In this document: positions 50,905 to 64,000 of the stretch, in pieces | How positions within the stretch are numbered: the first letter of the stretch is position 1 | How the letters are laid out: every line of letters starts with the position of its first letter | Source of the DNA: Collinsella aerofaciens | Lineage (GTDB): Bacteria; Actinomycetota; Coriobacteriia; Coriobacteriales; Coriobacteriaceae | Assembly: GCF_020181355.1 (NCBI RefSeq) | Contig: NZ_CP084004.1 | Coordinates: 1,178,001 to 1,242,000 of the forward strand | Direction of reading: 5' to 3' | Length of the DNA stretch: 64,000 nt | The notes under the pieces: model-generated | Database searches by the model: none | What the model was told of the DNA's origin: nothing | The model's input: the letters and a program-made list of their open reading frames with translations, nothing else | Program-made: the position numbers and the translations under genes

Positions 50905-53478
50905 TTACTGCCCAAAGACCTCTTCGGCGATACGCGCGCTCTCGGCGGCGTCCTTGGCGTAGTAGTCCGCGCCAATCTGCTTGGCGTATTCGGGGGTGAG
51001 CACGGCGCCGCCCACGATGATCTTGACGCCCGGCACCTCGGCATGAAGCAGCTTGATGGTCTCCTCCATGGCCACGACGGTGGTAGTCATAAGCGCCGAG
51101 AGGCCGACGAGCTTAATGTCACGCTCCTTGACGGTCTTGAGCACCTCCTGCGGATCGACGTCGCGACCCAGATCAAAGACGGTGTAGCCGTAGTTGTCGA
51201 GCAGCATCTTGACGATGTTCTTACCGATGTCGTGGATATCGCCCTTAACGGTGGCCACGCAGATCTTGCCCTTGTCGGCAATCTCGCCGGCGGGCATCAG
51301 GCGCTTGATGGTGTCGAAGCCCACGCGCGCGGCCTCGGCCGAGGCCATGAGCTGCGGCAAGAAGAACTTTCCCTGGTCAAAGAGGACTCCGACCTCATCG
51401 AGGGCGGGGATAAAGTGGTTGTTGATGAGGTCCATAGCGTCGTGGTCGGCCAGCAGGCGCTCGGTCTCGGCCGCGATCTCGCCTTTGCGGCCCGAGACGA
51501 CCATGTGGCGGATGGGGTCGTCGTTGCCGTCGGTGCCAGCGGTGCCAGCAGCGGGCACGGTGTCGGTCGATGTGGCCTGAGCCGCTGCCGGGTTGGCGGC
51601 GATCTTGTACGGATCGGTCCAGCCGGCATAGCGCTCGATGTATCCGGTCGAGCCCTCGTCCTCAACGCTCAGGACGCGATAGCTGTAGACGGTGTCCATA
51701 AAGCGCTTGGAGCCCGGGTTCATGATGGGGGCGTCCAGGCCCGCGCCAAAGGCGGCGGCCAAAAAGACCGAGCCCAGCAGCGGGCGCGCGGGCAGGCCAA
51801 AGCTGATATTCGACACGCCAAGCGCGCATTTGACGCCCAGACGCTTCTTGCACAGGGACATGGCGCGCAGGATCTGTTCGGCTTGGCGTTGATTGGTCGA
51901 GGCGGTCATGACCAGGCAGTCGATGAGGATGCGGTCCGGGCCGATGCCGTAGCGGGCGGCCTCGGCCACGATGCGCTCGGCGATGGCGAAGCGAGCCTCG
52001 GCGGTATCGGGGATGCCGCCTTCGTCGAGCGTGAGGCCGACGACGTTGGTTCCATAGTGGGCGACCAGCGGAAAGATCTCATCCATGATCTGCTGCTTGC
52101 CGTTAACCGAGTTGATGATGGGCTTGCCGGCGTAGCGGCGCACGGCGGCCTCGACGGCTGCGGGGTCGGTGGAGTCGATCTGCAACGGCAGCAGTGTGGA
52201 ACCCTGGAGCTGTTCAGTCGCCTGCTGGATGATCTTGACCTCGTCGATCTCGGGCAGGCCGACGTTGACGTCCAGGATATCGGCGCCCTGTTCCTGCTGG
52301 CTGATGCCCTGGCTCACGACGTAGTCAAGGTCGCCGTCGTGCAGGGCCTGCTGTAGGCGCTTTTTGCCGGTGGGATTGATGCGCTCGCCGATGACAGCGA
52401 TCTTGTGGCCATCGCAGGGGAGGTCCACGACCGTCTGGGCGCTTGTGACCGACATGCTGGGCTTGCGGTGGCGCGGACTGGGCGTGTGGTTATCGATAAG
52501 CGTGCGCAGCGCTGCCATGTGCGCCGGCGTGGTGCCGCAGCAGCCGCCCACAACGCTTACGCCGTCCTCGATCATGCCGGCGACGGCCACGGCGTACTCG
52601 GGCGCCTGGATATCAAAGACGGTGTTGCCGTCGTCGTCCACGCGGGGCAGTCCCGCGTTAGCCTGCACCATAACGGGCTTATCGGTAACGGTGAGCATGC
52701 GTGCGGCGAGCCCTCGGAGCTCGGCCGGTCCCTGGCTGCAGTTAATGCCCAGGACGTCGGTACCGATGGCATCGAGCGTGATGGCGGCCACCTCGGGACT
52801 CGTACCCAGGAACGTGCGACCGTCTTCCTCAAAGGTCATGGTGGCAAAGACGGGCAGGTCGGAGTTCTCGCGGCAGGCAAGGACCGCCGCCTTGATCTCG
52901 GCCAGGTCGGTCATGGTCTCGATGATAAAGAGGTCCACGCCCGCGGCGACGCCAGCGCGCACCTCCTCGGCAAAGAGGTCGTAGGCCTCGTCGAAGCTCA
53001 GGGTACCCAAGGGGCGAAGCAGCGCGCCGATGGGGCCGATATCGCCGGCGACGTAGCGGGCACCGGCCGCGCGGGCGCAGGCGACAGCGGCGGCAAAGAC
53101 ATCTGCCACGGTGGCGGCACCGTCGAGCTTGTGGGCGTTGGCGCCAAAGGTGTTGGCGGTGATCACGTCGCAGCCGGCCTCGACGTACTGACGCTGAATA
53201 TCGGTAATGACCTGGGGTTCCTCAAAGTTGAGCAGCTCGGGCAGGGCGCCGGCCTTCATGCCGGCCGCCTGCAGCATGGTACCCATGCCGCCGTCGAACA
53301 GCAGTTGTCCCGTGCCCTCGATGGCGGCGCGCAGGCGATCGTCCTTAATGCGAAGGTCGTCGATCGTGCGCGTCTTGTATGCAGCCCCGTTGCGGCGCGC
53401 AGCATCAACAGGCGCCGCCAGCGCGGCACCGTCCAGATCATGAGTGATAAGTATGTTTGAGCTATTCGCCATGTGCAT
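50905..53478 (-). CDS. metH: Cobalamin-dependent methionine synthase without reactivation domain
   Basis: Transfers methyl from 5-methyl-tetrahydrofolate to homocysteine through cobalamin. The protein is 857 residues against about 1200 for E. coli MetH. Homocysteine-binding domain: about 40-340, with zinc Cys in GINCSQGP and GGCCGTTP. Pterin domain: about 355-625. Helical cap and cobalamin domain: about 655-855, with DIHDIGKNIV carrying the axial His. The C-terminal AdoMet reactivation domain is absent and is encoded apart at 55708-56499. ATG 53478 or 53472 is the start. Both lie within the last codons of the endonuclease gene, and no clear ribosome binding site is seen, so translation may depend on that gene. 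Confidence 0.95.
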   Translation of the reverse strand: MHMANSSNILITHDLDGAALAAPVDAARRNGAAYKTRTIDDLRIKDDRLRAAIEGTGQLLFDGGMGTMLQAAGMKAGALPELLNFEEPQVITDIQRQYVEAGCDVITANTFGANAHKLDGAATVADVFAAAVACARAAGARYVAGDIGPIGALLRPLGTLSFDEAYDLFAEEVRAGVAAGVDLFIIETMTDLAEIKAAVLACRENSDLPVFATMTFEEDGRTFLGTSPEVAAITLDAIGTDVLGINCSQGPAELRGLAARMLTVTDKPVMVQANAGLPRVDDDGNTVFDIQAPEYAVAVAGMIEDGVSVVGGCCGTTPAHMAALRTLIDNHTPSPRHRKPSMSVTSAQTVVDLPCDGHKIAVIGERINPTGKKRLQQALHDGDLDYVVSQGISQQEQGADILDVNVGLPEIDEVKIIQQATEQLQGSTLLPLQIDSTDPAAVEAAVRRYAGKPIINSVNGKQQIMDEIFPLVAHYGTNVVGLTLDEGGIPDTAEARFAIAERIVAEAARYGIGPDRILIDCLVMTASTNQRQAEQILRAMSLCKKRLGVKCALGVSNISFGLPARPLLGSVFLAAAFGAGLDAPIMNPGSKRFMDTVYSYRVLSVEDEGSTGYIERYAGWTDPYKIAANPAAAQATSTDTVPAAGTAGTDGNDDPIRHMVVSGRKGEIAAETERLLADHDAMDLINNHFIPALDEVGVLFDQGKFFLPQLMASAEAARVGFDTIKRLMPAGEIADKGKICVATVKGDIHDIGKNIVKMLLDNYGYTVFDLGRDVDPQEVLKTVKERDIKLVGLSALMTTTVVAMEETIKLLHAEVPGVKIIVGGAVLTPEYAKQIGADYYAKDAAESARIAEEVFGQ

Positions 53479-54475
53479 CCATTTCGTCTAGAGCCCACTG
53501 AGGAATTTCTATTTGAAGGGATTTGTCGGGCTCGATATCTTCGATTCGCTTGTTGTAGTGGGCAAGAAGCCGTGCGACATTTAATCGAATTAGGTCTCGC
53601 TTGTAGAACGATAATTCTTCAATATTGATGCCGATAAACGATTCGAGCGCGATAACCTGTACGCGATTGCCGAGTCCCTCACTTTCGAACAGTCCGTAAG
53701 CGAAGGAAACTTTATCGTGGGGGACAACGACGATGGGCCGAATGCCATTTCGAATGTTATCTCGGCATCGATCGGTCAATTTTGCCATTGGCGATACAGT
53801 CACGTGAAATGCAGCATCATTGATTTGGAAATCGCCAGAACGGTCTGTTTGCTGGTCGGCAGCGTTTGAGTTGTCCTTTCCGATTTCTATGGTTGGAAAT
53901 AACATCTCTAGTTTTGCGCCTACCAGGTGCTGTGCGACGGTACCCGTTGGCTTATCGGACCGTAGGCTTGCTTCGGCTAGGATATCATCGACAATGACAG
54001 AAATTGGTTTTTGAAGATCGATTTCGACTTTGATTCTCTGCCGGTTAAAGAAATCGACCTGGATTCGCTCGACGAAGAAATTGGCGATTGCGTTCGCAGC
54101 TTCAAGACGAGTGTCTTCGCAAGTGTCGCTGGGTAGGGTAGAGTTGATAATTGTGGCAAGCTCAAGCGCCATCGGGAGTGTGCCGCGTGAGGTTCTGCCG
54201 CCCTCTGATGCGAAGGCACGCATTTCCCCATGCCTGGCTAAAACTGTTTTGATGCATGCTCCACTTAGGCCTCGTACTTGGCTCCCCTTGTCCGATTGCA
54301 CATAATCGTTGGTGAGCGGAAAACGGTTTTGCAACAGCTCGCTTATGCCTATGCCAACCGCCATGACGTTACGGTTGACATTGCCTCGCTTGCTGCGCTT
54401 GGATTCGTACCAGAGTTCAATGGCATCCAAGATATCTTTATCGGGCTCGTTCAAGGAGCAATTGGTCATTTCCAT
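53462..54475 (-). CDS. Putative type II restriction endonuclease (DUF4928-like)
   Basis: A 337-residue protein paired with the cytosine methyltransferase. From memory it resembles DUF4928 endonucleases found beside C5 methyltransferases; I cannot point to an unambiguous catalytic triad, though SGDFQINDAAFHVTVSP is a candidate nuclease core. It has no membrane segment. Its start at 54475 follows AAGGAACGGAG and lies 38 bases inside the methyltransferase gene. Its stop codon lies inside metH. Its base composition is visibly more A+T-rich than that of metH. Confidence 0.7.
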   Translation of the reverse strand: MEMTNCSLNEPDKDILDAIELWYESKRSKRGNVNRNVMAVGIGISELLQNRFPLTNDYVQSDKGSQVRGLSGACIKTVLARHGEMRAFASEGGRTSRGTLPMALELATIINSTLPSDTCEDTRLEAANAIANFFVERIQVDFFNRQRIKVEIDLQKPISVIVDDILAEASLRSDKPTGTVAQHLVGAKLEMLFPTIEIGKDNSNAADQQTDRSGDFQINDAAFHVTVSPMAKLTDRCRDNIRNGIRPIVVVPHDKVSFAYGLFESEGLGNRVQVIALESFIGINIEELSFYKRDLIRLNVARLLAHYNKRIEDIEPDKSLQIEIPQWALDEMDAHGE

Positions 54476-55598
54476 TATTGTTCACTCCGTTCCTTGAAGA
54501 CATAAGCGCGGGTTTGACTGCATTTTTTATAAGCCAAGTGACAACTGGCACGGCAACTGCATCGCCGAATGCGTAGCGAATCTGAGCATCCGAGAAGCCG
54601 CTAAACTGACATGAGTCAGCACCTTGGAGACGGGCATATTCGGTTCCAGTCATCCAGCGAACTTCTATCTTTCCGTTTTCGCATATCACGACTGCCTGTC
54701 TTGATGAGCCGCCGCGAGCCGTTCTTAGACATCCGGCAATTTCTTCTTCACGGATTTCCCAGCGCACAACGCCTGATCGCGTGCGACGGTAAGCAGTGCG
54801 AACAATTTTTCCTTTGGCATTTAAGAAGCGCTGAAGGCGCTCTGCTTGATGCGGTGCAAGTGAGTCGATAAATGCTTGTACTTGGTTTTTGTTCCACCAA
54901 CGCTTGTCGTCCTCGGGAATATCTTCAACAACCGTTGCAAGGCCCGTCATGCGAAGTGGGCTCGGCTCGTTTAGGTGAGAGACGTGCGTAATGAGTGAAG
55001 GGTCGGAGTGAATCCAGGAGACCTTTTCAGGTCGAAGCGAGGAATCGAGTCGGCTGTTGGGAAGAGGGTTTTTTAATCCGACGACAAACATGCGGGGGCG
55101 TGACTGGGGAAGCCAGTGCCGTGCATCGATAAAATAAGCGTCGCATGAATAGCCTAAACGATTAAATTCCTGGCAAACGAGTCTAAAGTCATCACTGTTA
55201 TTAGACGTGGCAAGGCCGATGACGTTTTCGAGAACAAGTGCCCGCGGGGCACGATCGCTCATTCCTTCGATGGCCTTAATAAAGCCAAAGAACGCACTGG
55301 ACTCTTTGCCAGAGATAAGTCCCTCCCTGTTTCCCGCGAGAGATAAGTTTGTGCAAGGGCTTGACGCCCATGCGATGTCGGCTTGGGGTATTAGGTCGGG
55401 GTCGAGTGTGTGGACATCCTGCTCGACTAGATGCTCATCGCCCCAGCACTGGCTGTACATGGCGCATTTAGTATGGTCTATGTCATTTGCCCAGATTGTT
55501 TTGATTCCGGCTTTTGCCATGCCGGCACGAGCCAAGCCAATGCCTGAAAAAAACTCAAGCGCGGTTAGTTGTGGCGAGAACTGCAGAATGTTGTGCAT
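54438..55598 (-). CDS. DNA (cytosine-5) methyltransferase
   Basis: A C5 methyltransferase of 386 residues. Motif I is ALEFFSGIGLA, motif IV SSPCTNLSLAG with the catalytic Cys, motif VI VLENVIG, motif VIII SRPRMFVVG, and motif X YAFGDAVAVPVV. The target-recognition region lies at about 195-330; the target sequence cannot be read. It protects host DNA from the co-encoded nuclease. The gene is more A+T-rich than the methionine genes on either side, which suggests transfer. Confidence 0.93.
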   Translation of the reverse strand: MHNILQFSPQLTALEFFSGIGLARAGMAKAGIKTIWANDIDHTKCAMYSQCWGDEHLVEQDVHTLDPDLIPQADIAWASSPCTNLSLAGNREGLISGKESSAFFGFIKAIEGMSDRAPRALVLENVIGLATSNNSDDFRLVCQEFNRLGYSCDAYFIDARHWLPQSRPRMFVVGLKNPLPNSRLDSSLRPEKVSWIHSDPSLITHVSHLNEPSPLRMTGLATVVEDIPEDDKRWWNKNQVQAFIDSLAPHQAERLQRFLNAKGKIVRTAYRRTRSGVVRWEIREEEIAGCLRTARGGSSRQAVVICENGKIEVRWMTGTEYARLQGADSCQFSGFSDAQIRYAFGDAVAVPVVTWLIKNAVKPALMSSRNGVNNNGNDQLLLERAR

Positions 55599-55707
55599 GT
55601 ACTGGCTTTCAGATAGTTGTTATTTGGCATCTTATGGTACTTGTTTGTGAGGACATCCGCTTACTTACGGACGAGATTCCCTCGATACCGTGCCATCAAT
55701 TGACATT

Positions 55708-56499
55708 TTATTCAGAATGCGAATAGCAGGTGGTGTGGGCGGCGCGGAAGCGACAGTGCTCGCGCATGCGGCAGATAGTGCAGGTGGGACGGCTCTGGGC
55801 GTCGTGGACCTCGCCGTCAAACAGACCGATCACCGCGGTCACGCTCTTTGTGGGCATGAGTAGGCTGGTAGGCGTGACGGTAAGCCCGATGAGCCGCGTG
55901 GCGTTGAGCGCATTCACGATCGAGCGTTGTGCCGTAAGCGGGCAGTCGCCGTAGCCGGGACTGAAGCGCCAGTTACCGGCGAGTCCGTGTGCGGCGGCCG
56001 CAGCCTTGACCTGCTGATCCATCTGCTCGACGGCAGCTTCCACATAGGCAGAGCACGCGGCATCGAGCACAGCTCCCTCTAGGGGCTGCTGGGCTCCCGT
56101 GGTGCGCAGGCGACGCTCGGCGTCCATGCCGAGGGTGCATGCCATGAGCGCGGCAAATCGGGCGTCTTTGAGATGTCGATAGATATCGCGACCGCGCAGC
56201 TCAACGTTGGTGCCGACCAGACGGATGCAGGGCTCTCCCTGCTCGTCCACGCCCGTGGCATCGACGGCAAACACGCGTCGCACGCCACGGGGCTCAATGT
56301 CCAGTTCCAAACGTTCAACGACAAGCTCAATACGCTGCGACAGTTCGGGCTCAATTTGCTGACCGCTGTAGCCCAGGTAGCGCAGCATCTCGGCACGATC
56401 GACGCGGGGATGGTGGGCATCATCGATACGATAAAGCGCCGGCGACGCAAGGTCGGCCGGCACTTCGACAGCGGTTGTATCGATGTGCGGTTTTTCCAT
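55708..56499 (-). CDS. Stand-alone methionine synthase reactivation domain
   Basis: A 263-residue protein homologous to the C-terminal AdoMet-binding activation domain of MetH (compare the TM0269-like family, recall). The key motif is NWRFSPGYGDCPLTAQRSIVNALNATRLIGLTVTPTSLLMPTKSVTAVIG, where RxSPGYGDCP corresponds to the RxxPGYP AdoMet motif. It reductively remethylates cob(II)alamin of the truncated MetH. A Cys-rich tail (CTICRMREHC) may bind metal or a cluster. The ATG overlaps the metF stop (TAATG). The next gene downstream is the R-M methyltransferase, not metH. Confidence 0.88.
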   Translation of the reverse strand: MEKPHIDTTAVEVPADLASPALYRIDDAHHPRVDRAEMLRYLGYSGQQIEPELSQRIELVVERLELDIEPRGVRRVFAVDATGVDEQGEPCIRLVGTNVELRGRDIYRHLKDARFAALMACTLGMDAERRLRTTGAQQPLEGAVLDAACSAYVEAAVEQMDQQVKAAAAAHGLAGNWRFSPGYGDCPLTAQRSIVNALNATRLIGLTVTPTSLLMPTKSVTAVIGLFDGEVHDAQSRPTCTICRMREHCRFRAAHTTCYSHSE

Positions 56500-57371
56500 T
56501 ACCCCAGGCGCTCCATAATGGTTGCGGCGATCGCAGGACGATTCATAGTGTACAGGTGCAGACCGGCGGCGCCGTGCTCCTTGAGGTCGCAAAGCTGACG
56601 GGCGGCATAATCTACACCGGCTGCCTGCAGGCTCTCGGGATCGTTCTCGTACTTGGCGAGAATCTTGATGACGGGGGAGGGCAGCGATGCGCCGCACATA
56701 AAGACCATGCGGCTGATCTGCGACTTGCCCATAAACGGCATGATGCCCGCGGTAATGGGCACGGTGATACCGGCCTTGTCGGCAAGCTCGCGAAAACGGT
56801 AGAAGCACTCGTTATCAAAGAAGAGCTGCGTCACAAAGAAGCTCGCGCCGGCGTCCTGTTTTTGCTTGAGGTGTTCGACCGAGACGTTGAGGTCCTCGCA
56901 GGCAATGTGGCCCTCGGGGTAGGCTGCGGCGCCCACACAAAAGCCGGCGTCGACGAGCTCGGGGATGAGGTCGCGGGCGTAGGCGTAGTCCGAGGCGGGC
57001 TTGTCGTCCTCGGTCGCGCCGGCGGGAAGATCACCGCGCAGGGCCAGCACATTTTCTACACCGGCGGAGCGGTACTCGTCGATCTTGGCGGCAATATCGG
57101 CATGCGTGCGGCCAACGCAGGTGAGGTGTGCCACCGAGGGCGTATCGAATTCGCTCGTAATCATATGTGCGATGGGGGCGGTGGCGGCGCCGTTGCCCGA
57201 ACCGCCGGCCGAGCAGGTGACCGAGACAAAACTCGGCGAAAGATTGCACAGATTGCCTGCCACTTCGCGAGCCGTGTCGAGGGTCAGCTCGCCCTTGGGC
57301 GGGAACATCTCAAACGAAACGGGCGCGGTGCCTTGGGATGCTGCCTGCTTAAAAACCTCGTCGACGCGCAT
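56499..57371 (-). CDS. metF: 5,10-methylenetetrahydrofolate reductase
   Basis: Makes 5-methyl-tetrahydrofolate, the methyl donor of MetH. The protein is 290 residues. It begins APVSFEMFPPKGE with the catalytic Glu, then VSVTCSAGGSG, HLTCVGRT and NVLALRGDLP, all typical. The ATG at 57371 follows AAAGGAG. It is the first gene of the methionine operon; no SAM, B12 or T-box leader was recognised upstream. Confidence 0.95.
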   Translation of the reverse strand: MRVDEVFKQAASQGTAPVSFEMFPPKGELTLDTAREVAGNLCNLSPSFVSVTCSAGGSGNGAATAPIAHMITSEFDTPSVAHLTCVGRTHADIAAKIDEYRSAGVENVLALRGDLPAGATEDDKPASDYAYARDLIPELVDAGFCVGAAAYPEGHIACEDLNVSVEHLKQKQDAGASFFVTQLFFDNECFYRFRELADKAGITVPITAGIMPFMGKSQISRMVFMCGASLPSPVIKILAKYENDPESLQAAGVDYAARQLCDLKEHGAAGLHLYTMNRPAIAATIMERLG

Positions 57372-57516
57372 ATCGTGCTCCTTTAGATGCTTAGTGCGAT
57401 GTGTTGTAAGGATTCTACAGCACCACTGCGCCACGATGGAGTTTTACTCGCTATTTGGTGATACCAATCGAAAATGCTTCGCTATCGGCATTTCCTATAA
57501 CAGAGCGGTCAATGTA

Positions 57517-59991: not shown

Positions 59992-60732
59992 CTAGGGTAA
60001 GGGCGTGCGCGTTGCCGTGTCATGAAAATGAAAAATGCTTGGAATATAACGTGCCTCGATGTACTCAAATTGAGTTCCGGTTGAGTCGAATGTCTGGCTG
60101 GTTACGACTGCCAGATACGAAGAAGAATCGACGCCAAGCAACCGGCAGTCCTCAGCGTCGGGCTGGGCGAGTGTTATCGTTCGTTTGCTCACGGCAATGG
60201 TGAGCCCTAGCTCATCCTCGATGTAATGGAAGAGCGACAGGGTGGCATTCTGCTCGTTTAAGCCGGGGACGGAGGAAGTTAGGAAGTAGTGGCGGTCGAC
60301 AGCGACCGGTTTATCGTCGAGCATGCGGACGAGCTTCAAATGCGTAAGGTCTTCTCCTTCGGGAAATCCCGTCAACTGAGCTAGACACTTATTGGTGCTT
60401 ACGTGTTCGAAATAGACGATTTTTGACGTTGGGATTGCTCCGATCGCGTGTGCCGATTCGCTGAACGAACAAAGGCCGCTTACGGTGAATGCGCCCTCTT
60501 TGCTGGTGCCTGCAACTGACGTCTCGATTACGAGGACTCCCTTGCCTTTAATGGACTGAACTAGACCTTCATTTGCGAGAAGCGAGATAGCCTTGCGCAC
60601 CGTCATTCGAGAGCAGGAGAACTCTTTGGAAAGATTTTGTTCGGAAGGAAGGAGCGATCCCACGGGATGCTTGCCTTCGACAATCCGCTCTCGAAGGCTG
60701 CGGTAAATTTCACTGTACAGGATCCTTGCCAA
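59992..60732 (-). CDS. GntR/HutC-family repressor with UTRA domain
   Basis: A 246-residue regulator. The winged helix is ILYSEIYRSLRERIVEGKHPVGSLLPSEQNLSKEFSCSRMTVRKAISLLANEGLV. A UTRA ligand domain (about 80-240) follows and probably binds a sugar phosphate, as in TreR. The start is TTG at 60732 behind AAGGAG. It is divergent from the malA-PTS operon, whose promoter carries two TGTCTAGACA palindromes, the likely operators. Confidence 0.92.
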   Translation of the reverse strand: MARILYSEIYRSLRERIVEGKHPVGSLLPSEQNLSKEFSCSRMTVRKAISLLANEGLVQSIKGKGVLVIETSVAGTSKEGAFTVSGLCSFSESAHAIGAIPTSKIVYFEHVSTNKCLAQLTGFPEGEDLTHLKLVRMLDDKPVAVDRHYFLTSSVPGLNEQNATLSLFHYIEDELGLTIAVSKRTITLAQPDAEDCRLLGVDSSSYLAVVTSQTFDSTGTQFEYIEARYIPSIFHFHDTATRTPLP

Positions 60733-60867
60733 AATGCTCTCCTTATTGAGGTTGTACGGAATGCGTCGAATCGGCGCGATTATCCACTTCTACCAATTAT
60801 AGGAAGTGGAGACACTTAAAGTTACCGCTTACCGCCATAAATCAACCGTTCGCCCGTGTGCTTAACA

Positions 60868-62271
<1,404 letters not shown>

Positions 62272-62339
62272 TATCGGAAATCAATTTAGCGAATGATGGC
62301 GGGCGGCCGACCTTGGACAGGTCGCATGGGAGAAAAACC

Positions 62340-63809
62340 ATGAGCGAAAGCAAAGAGCTTGCAAATCGCAAGCTCGGCGAGGACGTAGTTGGCCTCGTCG
62401 GCGGTAAGGAAAACATCCTGAGCATCTCGCACTGCATGACGCGTCTACGTTTCAAGCTGCGAGACGATGCGAAGGCCGATACTAAGGCAATTGAATCTCA
62501 TAAAGGCGTCATTCAGGTAATCAACGCGAATGGCCAGTATCAGGTTGTTGTCGGCATCAATGTGATTGAGGATGTTTACGATGCCGCGGTTGCCGCTTCT
62601 GGTGTCGAGGGGCTGGGCGAGGTTAATCTTGATGGTGAGCCCGTCAAGAAAGGAAACGTTGTTAGTGCCCTTATCGATACTATTTCAGGCGTAATCCAGT
62701 CGATTCTTGCGGTGCTGTGTGCTGCGGGCATGATCAAGGGTGTTTTGAGTATTCTCGTCGCCCTTGGATGGATTACGGCGACAGATGGCTTGTACCAGAT
62801 TCTATATGCGGCTGGTGACGGCTTCTTCTACTTCCTGCCGATTATCCTTGGCTATACCGCGGCAAAGAAGTTTGGCTGCAGCGAGTTCGTTGGCATGACG
62901 CTCGGTATCGCACTTACGTATCCGGCGATGGTCAATATCACATCGGGTGATGTCTTGGGAACGGTGCTTGCCGGCACTCCCTTTGCCATGAACTATTACA
63001 CGACATTCCTCGGCATACCCGTCATCATGCCGTCTTCGGGTTATACGAGCTCTGTCATTCCGATTATCATCTCTGTTTGGTTCGCGGCAAAGCTGGAGAA
63101 GTGGTGCCGCAAGCATTTCTCTGAGTATGTAAAGTTCTTCTTTGTGCCTACGTGCGTGCTCGTTGTGATGGTCCCCGCTACCTATTTGATTATTGGCCCG
63201 ATTGCCACCCTGATTACGAACCTCATGAGCCTGCTGTTTAACTCCCTCTACAGCTTGCCTGTCATCGGCGGCGCGCTCGGCGGCATCGTGCTTACTGCCA
63301 TTTGGCAGCCTATGGTCATCTTCGGCTTCCACTGGAGTGTCATTGCTCTCATGCTTGTGAACATTGCCTCCCAGGGCTGGGATATTGTCATGGCGCCGTA
63401 CATGGTTTGCTCGTACGCTCAGTCCCTTGCCGTCCTCGCTATCCTTCTGAAGACTAAGGACGTAAAGCTCAAGCAGCTTGCATGGCCGGCGTTCATCTCG
63501 GGCTTCTTCTTTGGCATCACCGAACCCTGCATCTACGGCGTGACCCTTCCGCGCAAGAAGCCTTTTATCATGAGCTGCATCGCCTCTGTGCCCGGCGGCC
63601 TAATCATCGGCGCTCTTGGCACCAAGATGTTCGCCTTCACCGGCGGCGGCTTCTGCGCCTTCCCGGGCTTCATTGACCCGTCCGGTGCAATGGGCGCGAA
63701 CTACCTGATTTACGTAATCATAGCCATTGTGGTTTCCAGTGTGATTTCGTTCCTGCTTACGTATGCGACGTACAAGGAGGACGTGCCGGCGGTAGAGGCT
63801 GCAAAGTAG
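62340..63809 (+). CDS. PTS EIIBC transporter, probably for alpha-glucosides
   Basis: A membrane permease of 489 residues with an N-terminal EIIB and a C-terminal EIIC, order B-C as in TreB or BglP. The phosphorylated Cys32 is in ISHCMTRLRFKL. EIIC (about 105-480) has about ten helices and the family motif GITEPCIYGVTLPRKKPF. There is no EIIA domain, so an external glucose-type EIIA is needed. It forms an operon with the MalA-type GH4 enzyme, which points to a maltose-, trehalose- or isomaltose-like alpha-glucoside. The ATG at 62340 follows GGGAGA. Confidence 0.93.
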   Translation: MSESKELANRKLGEDVVGLVGGKENILSISHCMTRLRFKLRDDAKADTKAIESHKGVIQVINANGQYQVVVGINVIEDVYDAAVAASGVEGLGEVNLDGEPVKKGNVVSALIDTISGVIQSILAVLCAAGMIKGVLSILVALGWITATDGLYQILYAAGDGFFYFLPIILGYTAAKKFGCSEFVGMTLGIALTYPAMVNITSGDVLGTVLAGTPFAMNYYTTFLGIPVIMPSSGYTSSVIPIIISVWFAAKLEKWCRKHFSEYVKFFFVPTCVLVVMVPATYLIIGPIATLITNLMSLLFNSLYSLPVIGGALGGIVLTAIWQPMVIFGFHWSVIALMLVNIASQGWDIVMAPYMVCSYAQSLAVLAILLKTKDVKLKQLAWPAFISGFFFGITEPCIYGVTLPRKKPFIMSCIASVPGGLIIGALGTKMFAFTGGGFCAFPGFIDPSGAMGANYLIYVIIAIVVSSVISFLLTYATYKEDVPAVEAAK

Positions 63810-63858
63810 CCAAAGAAGCGGAGTGCGGGATATGTATTCCCCGTGCGCCAGCAATCTG

Positions 63859-63900
63859 ACAAGGTCGTCCTTGGATAAGCGCCGAGGGCGACCTTGTCTT
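63859..63900 (+). terminator. Terminator of the malA-EIIBC operon
   Basis: ACAAGGTCG / CGACCTTGT form the stem with an inner CCT/AGG pair, followed by CTT. Confidence 0.7.
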
Positions 63901-63933
63901 GTGCTGGTTTCGTTTGAGAGGCAGTGGTTGAGA

Positions 63934-64000
63934 GTGTCTAATATTATCTTTGACAATAGGATGGGCGAGGCGTGCCTTGCGGCGTGGAGGTCCGCGGGCG
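63934..64000 (+). CDS. Possible start of a further gene, cut by the window end
   Basis: From GTG at 63934 a frame stays open to the end and reads SNIIFDNRMGEACLAAWRSAG. It begins after the operon terminator with only a weak ribosome binding site. It is too short to assign. Confidence 0.3.
   Translation, partial: MSNIIFDNRMGEACLAAWRSAG

Follow-up and report, generated by a model that had tools for sequence, protein, structure and literature searches.

A probable mobile type II restriction-modification cassette inserted by substitution in the metF-act-metH locus of Collinsella

A split methionine synthase and the genes that separate it

The stretch of DNA analysed here (64,000 nucleotides, hereafter the window, from genome G000 of the genus Collinsella) carries a DNA methyltransferase gene and a putative restriction endonuclease gene between two genes of methionine synthesis, which raises the question of how such a pair came to lie there and what it does to its neighbours. 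A preliminary description had given the gene order as metF, Act, MT, RE and metH on a single strand. Open reading frames and profile searches recovered all five genes in that order on the minus strand, from 50905 to 57434 (Table 1). The range that it had singled out, 53462-56499, does take in RE, MT and Act, but the inserted DNA itself occupies 53452-55720.

Table 1 Features of the locus, in window coordinates.
Feature	Position	Strand	Basis or remark
metF, methylenetetrahydrofolate reductase	56499..57434	-	PF02219 7.3e-73; longest ORF shown, actual start possibly more internal
Act, stand-alone MetH reactivation protein, 263 aa	55708..56499	-	PDB 1j6r match 1.9e-9; TAATG start
Inserted DNA, 2,269 bp, replacing 31 bp of the empty allele	53452..55720	-	19 close empty alleles compared with two filled alleles
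Leader, 109 bp, Act stop to MT start	55599..55707	-	
MT, C5-cytosine DNA methyltransferase, 386 aa	54438..55598	-	PF00145 1.6e-42; dcm 8e-45; PADLOC MTase_II 3e-144
RE, putative DUF4928 restriction endonuclease, 337 aa	53462..54475	-	PF16280 4e-103; PADLOC REase_II 4.1e-95
metH without reactivation domain	50905..53478	-	ATG at 53478 or 53472, both within the last RE codons

The genes are closely packed. The metF stop and the act ATG overlap as TAATG, joining the two genes tightly, RE overlaps MT by 38 bp, and the overlap between RE and metH is 11 or 17 bp, as metH has two candidate ATGs. The Shine-Dalgarno match of MT is weak (-0.4 kcal/mol), and the RE protein aligns to DUF4928 across the full length of the profile.

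Our favoured reading, to which we give a probability of about 0.8, is that a type II restriction-modification (R-M) cassette, mobile and probably active, entered metF-act-metH by substitution, spread between two species and probably coupled metH to RE.

Profile searches of MetH found the domains S-methyl_trans, Pterin_bind, B12-binding_2 and B12-binding, and no match to Met_synt_B12. Act itself scores below threshold against Met_synt_B12 (20.7 bits, Pfam cut-off 25) and matches PDB 1j6r, annotated 'METHIONINE SYNTHASE', in a search that, like the search of the genus described below, used 247 of its 263 residues, starting at 56451 within the gene. We take 1j6r to be TM0269 of Thermotoga maritima, in which TM0268 and TM0269 reportedly form a split methionine synthase. 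This homology and this precedent support both a resemblance of Act and MetH to the TM0268/TM0269 type and the earlier proposal of joint action by the two MetH pieces. Common to both loci are a MetH without a reactivation domain and a separate reactivation protein. The Collinsella locus differs in that the R-M pair separates the two genes and in that Act has a C-terminal tail with four cysteines beyond the aligned part.

This tail (window 55708-55800) contains the pattern C-x2-C-x5-C-x8-C, absent from the aligned part of 1j6r and possibly a metal or Fe-S site. It is kept in 22 of the 23 Act homologues listed (L055-L057 and L060-L078); L079 is without it. The insertion point lies directly after its last cysteine.

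Empty and filled alleles

Forty-three Collinsella genomes, one per species, were searched, and 37 of them gave an Act match. The preliminary description had proposed looking for an empty site in relatives, and such sites are common: act and metH adjoin in the same orientation in 31 of the 37 genomes, their matched stretches lying 24-143 bp apart. The distance is 2,232 bp in two of the 37, the window genome and C. aerofaciens MCC370 (G005), both of which carry the cassette. In the other four (G023, G024, G028 and G042) metH lies on the opposite strand from act, the gaps being, in order of size, 41, 233, 731 and 2,408 bp. Outside the genus, 396 genomes of the class were searched for each gene, and 91 genomes stood among the matches listed. 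Three of these were left out because their two matches lie on different contigs; all 88 assessed genomes have both genes on one strand, at most 579 bp apart, with no large insert.

Six of the 43 genomes gave no Act match (G015, G016, G017, G026, G027 and G032). The last is 72% complete and has metH at a contig end. Among the other five, four have no metH match and G016 has a weak one (3.9e-28); we read these five as having probably lost the whole methionine synthase.

Comparison of 19 close empty alleles with the two filled alleles resolves the event to the base: 31 bp are gone (32 in one empty allele) and 2,269 bp have come in. The removed segment comprises the third base of a serine codon, the last two codons and stop of Act, a GGAG, and the first four codons of metH. 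Base-by-base comparison of the junctions revealed no target duplication at the insert, and the junctions are identical in the two carriers. Both MetH proteins remain complete in the filled alleles.

The insert contains only the two R-M genes and the leader, and no integrase or transposase was seen among the open reading frames of the strand carrying the R-M genes. Its GC content is 0.497, against 0.622 and 0.650 in the flanks, and GC3 is 0.51 in MT and 0.53 in RE against 0.71-0.85 in Act, metF, metH and DUF711, which bears out the earlier remark that the pair between the MetH halves is richer in A+T. The empty sites and this foreign composition also dispose of what had been named as evidence against an insertion, namely a pair of host-like composition present at this position in every relative.

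A 9-bp exact inverted repeat spans both junctions (window 53461-53478 and 55710-55727), 7 bp of its left arm being host sequence. Among 2,000 random position pairs such a repeat was reached by 13 with 20-nt flanks and by 22 with 30-nt flanks; with 15-nt flanks the repeat is only 6 bp, as in 300 of the 2,000 random pairs. As terminal repeats of the insert, these arms are suggestive at best.

Movement between carriers and a second pair in the same interval

The cassettes of the two carriers differ at 39 positions in 2,269 bp, with no gaps. Synonymous divergence (dS) is 0.046 for MT and 0.062 for RE, against 0.412 for Act, 0.286 for MetH, 0.186 for MetF and 0.106 for DUF711 (Fisher p versus the cassette 4e-18, 2e-19, 4e-6 and 0.010, respectively). 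DUF711, just downstream of metH, exceeds the cassette in divergence only modestly, so it is mainly the immediate flanks with which the cassette contrasts strongly. The few differences between carriers (15 in MT, 22 in RE) give dN/dS values of 0.07 and 0.17, with purifying selection at p 4e-6 and 5e-5, a pattern which indicates that both R-M genes are kept as functional.

A cassette less diverged than its flanks, with the same junctions, argues that it moved between species. The window Act is closest to that of an empty-site genome, G009 (dS 0.045; the next is 0.239), which argues that cassette and flanks have had separate histories. The cassette, with the same junctions, now sits on different flanking haplotypes in two species.

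These data also bear on the view that the group inherited the pair from its ancestor and that the other genomes lost it. The two carriers are non-sister, and freely recombining flanks could let empty alleles replace filled ones, both of which would suit such losses. However, the 31-32 bp that carry the ribosome-binding site and metH start are the same in each of the 19 close empty alleles and absent from the filled ones, which marks the filled state as derived; the low dS of the cassette relative to its flanks speaks against ancestry as well, and we consider it very unlikely.

How the cassette passed from one species to the other is less straightforward. The simplest route of transfer would be homologous recombination in the met genes on either side, and we favour one insertion followed by such transfer, on account of the shared junctions. 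Yet the nearest flank differences between the carriers lie only 24 bp (left) and 16 bp (right) from the junctions, so that almost no donor flank is left, which is awkward for simple flanking-homology transfer; several rounds of recombination, or a preference for the site, could account for it.

A preference of this kind is the core of another explanation, in which the act-metH interval is a favoured landing site that R-M systems entered independently, and the identical junctions of the two carriers reflect the site. Besides the scant donor flank, it draws on the 2,408-bp interval of G023, where a 448-aa C5-methyltransferase with HTH_17 (PF00145 1.5e-55) and a 284-aa SinI-family endonuclease (PF09570 2.6e-23; no NCBIfam family) lie at L055:2440-4761, with a GC content of 0.547 against 0.72-0.75 in the flanks. 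Both cassettes thus place a C5-methyltransferase and an endonuclease in the same interval, but in G023 the endonuclease family is unrelated, the genes are divergent and metH is inverted. The genus has therefore seen at least two entries of R-M systems into this interval.

The inverted metH, however, makes the G023 interval tail-to-tail, with different ends. Moreover, none of the other 33 genus genomes in which act and metH are neighbours has an insert of R-M size, nor has any of the 88 assessed outside the genus, and on the strand of the R-M genes the window insert shows no integrase or transposase. Two cassettes in one interval may also be a coincidence: assuming about 1,900 intervals per genome, the 43 C5-methyltransferase matches of at least 100 bits in the 43 genomes would by chance give about 0.5 coincident pair anywhere and about 2% for the act-metH interval. 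C5-methyltransferase matches occur in 29 of the 43 genus genomes (43 of 55 matches reach at least 100 bits), and some are shared by descent, which lowers both figures. Overall, we regard a preferred landing site as an unlikely account of the two carriers. A C5-methyltransferase in G024 was considered as a further case and rejected, as it lies past metF and the next gene, outside the interval.

Turning to relatives of the endonuclease, we found them in three of the 43 genus genomes (in G028 as a 38% homologue at a different place), in 4 of 65 genomes of the family, and in 4 of 396 genomes of the phylum, one of them a short weak match. A scan of genome contigs for close relatives returned C. aerofaciens MCC370 (NZ_WQPK01000008.1, 98%) and a Cryobacterium (40%). 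Among 72,556 plasmid records, 25 carry a relative, with identity below 60%. The plasmid NZ_CP082282 of Enterobacter cancerogenus has an MT-RE pair of overlapping genes with M before R, as in Collinsella (M 52% and R 46% identical), but that pair is plasmid-borne and outside a metabolic operon. MT and RE genes are also adjacent on a Serratia plasmid. A viral origin was considered and rejected: a phage collection of 50,697 records held no RE relative, RE matched no PHROG, and a scan of viral contigs, limited to close relatives, yielded no confirmed one. As to a PD-(D/E)XK nuclease fold for RE, the fold model is weak (pLDDT 63.7), and fold searches gave no clear match.

These relatives bear on a possible functional partnership, in which the methyltransferase would be sited there because MetH feeds the supply of AdoMet; the preliminary description had suggested, as speculation, that the enzyme draws on the pathway that it interrupts. 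Position is what speaks for such a partnership, together with the second, unrelated C5-methyltransferase pair in the same interval. The Enterobacter and Serratia relatives, on the other hand, had no met genes in the stretches read, and in G028 the DUF4928-methyltransferase pair and the met genes lie on different contigs. DNA methylation is a minor use of AdoMet. We found no evidence for the link and consider it the least probable of the explanations weighed here.

Consequences for metH and relation to known insertions

The favoured reading would have a cassette of a C5-methyltransferase and a DUF4928 endonuclease enter the conserved Collinsella metF-act-metH locus, exchanging 31 bp for its own 2,269 bp. 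Act is unchanged through the serine after its last cysteine and ends in HSE, from the insert, in place of SH; MetH starts with 7 or 9 new residues in place of 4, far ahead of its first domain at residue 59.

The insert took out the native metH GGAG and start codon. In 35 extracts (16 being repeats) from the 19 close empty genomes, the Shine-Dalgarno value at this native start is always -6.5 kcal/mol. The two possible new starts, 14 and 8 bases ahead of the R stop codon, have values of -3.4 and -3.1 kcal/mol. Their position within the last RE codons makes translational coupling to RE likely, and reinitiation from R is the natural reading of how metH would be translated. RNA folding showed no signal, either at the new metH start (z 0.46) or at one native start (z 1.55).

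With the cassette on the met strand, this coupling would probably take place on a shared met transcript, and stable expression of the R-M pair from the met operon is plausible. A promoter scan of the minus strand from 50.7 to 58.0 kb found no sigma-70-like site, which is weak evidence; in the promoter and terminator scan as a whole there was one promoter-like site, on the plus strand, against 3.1 expected, and eight terminator-like sites against 7.1 expected. An Rfam search of window 46-64 kb gave no match at the gathering score.

Type II systems restrict unmethylated foreign DNA and resist their own loss by post-segregational killing, and the Collinsella pair presumably does both. A further, rather doubtful step would be that the host gene is held hostage, metH translation depending on R and the act-metH interval being a recurrent R-M landing site in Collinsella. 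A cell that lost or truncated R would then forfeit MetH as well, so that a metabolic tie would add to post-segregational killing. Dependence of metH translation on R would give a selfish cassette a concrete way to tie itself to a metabolic gene. More generally, with empty alleles, two carriers and junctions resolved to the base, this R-M insertion makes mobility and the cost to its host, a gut bacterium, directly testable.

R-M pairs are already known to insert into operons, and even to separate genes that encode two chains of a single enzyme. In the account of PabI-family systems, R-M pairs had entered putative operons in the orientation of the operon genes, one insertion adjoining the genes for the large and small chains of glutamate synthase, and the inserts replaced 62 bp or 4 bp (PMC4615327). 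The enzymes there differ, being a restriction glycosylase and an adenine methyltransferase, and sections 8-9 of that account describe no takeover of the downstream gene's start (PMC4615327). Further modes of R-M movement have been described, among them illegitimate crossing-over at 1-3 bp (PMC3031569). Judged by title, the papers listed on Collinsella R-M systems include none on this insertion, which does not in itself prove start takeover unreported; the takeover of the metH start and the second cassette in G023 are the parts that may be new.

Some minor observations concern neighbouring or related DNA. In the Cryobacterium stretch (L032:2929-7059) a 248-aa open reading frame, GIY-YIG-like by eye, lies between the methyltransferase and DUF4928 genes, and a Vsr-like one, also by eye, lies upstream. 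The end of the window (about 60000-64000) looks accessory, as among 17 aligned relatives G002 alone aligns across most of it, although contig ends may hide this stretch in several relatives. A partial second C5-methyltransferase match is present in the window's own genome, at G000:C1:932635-932889.
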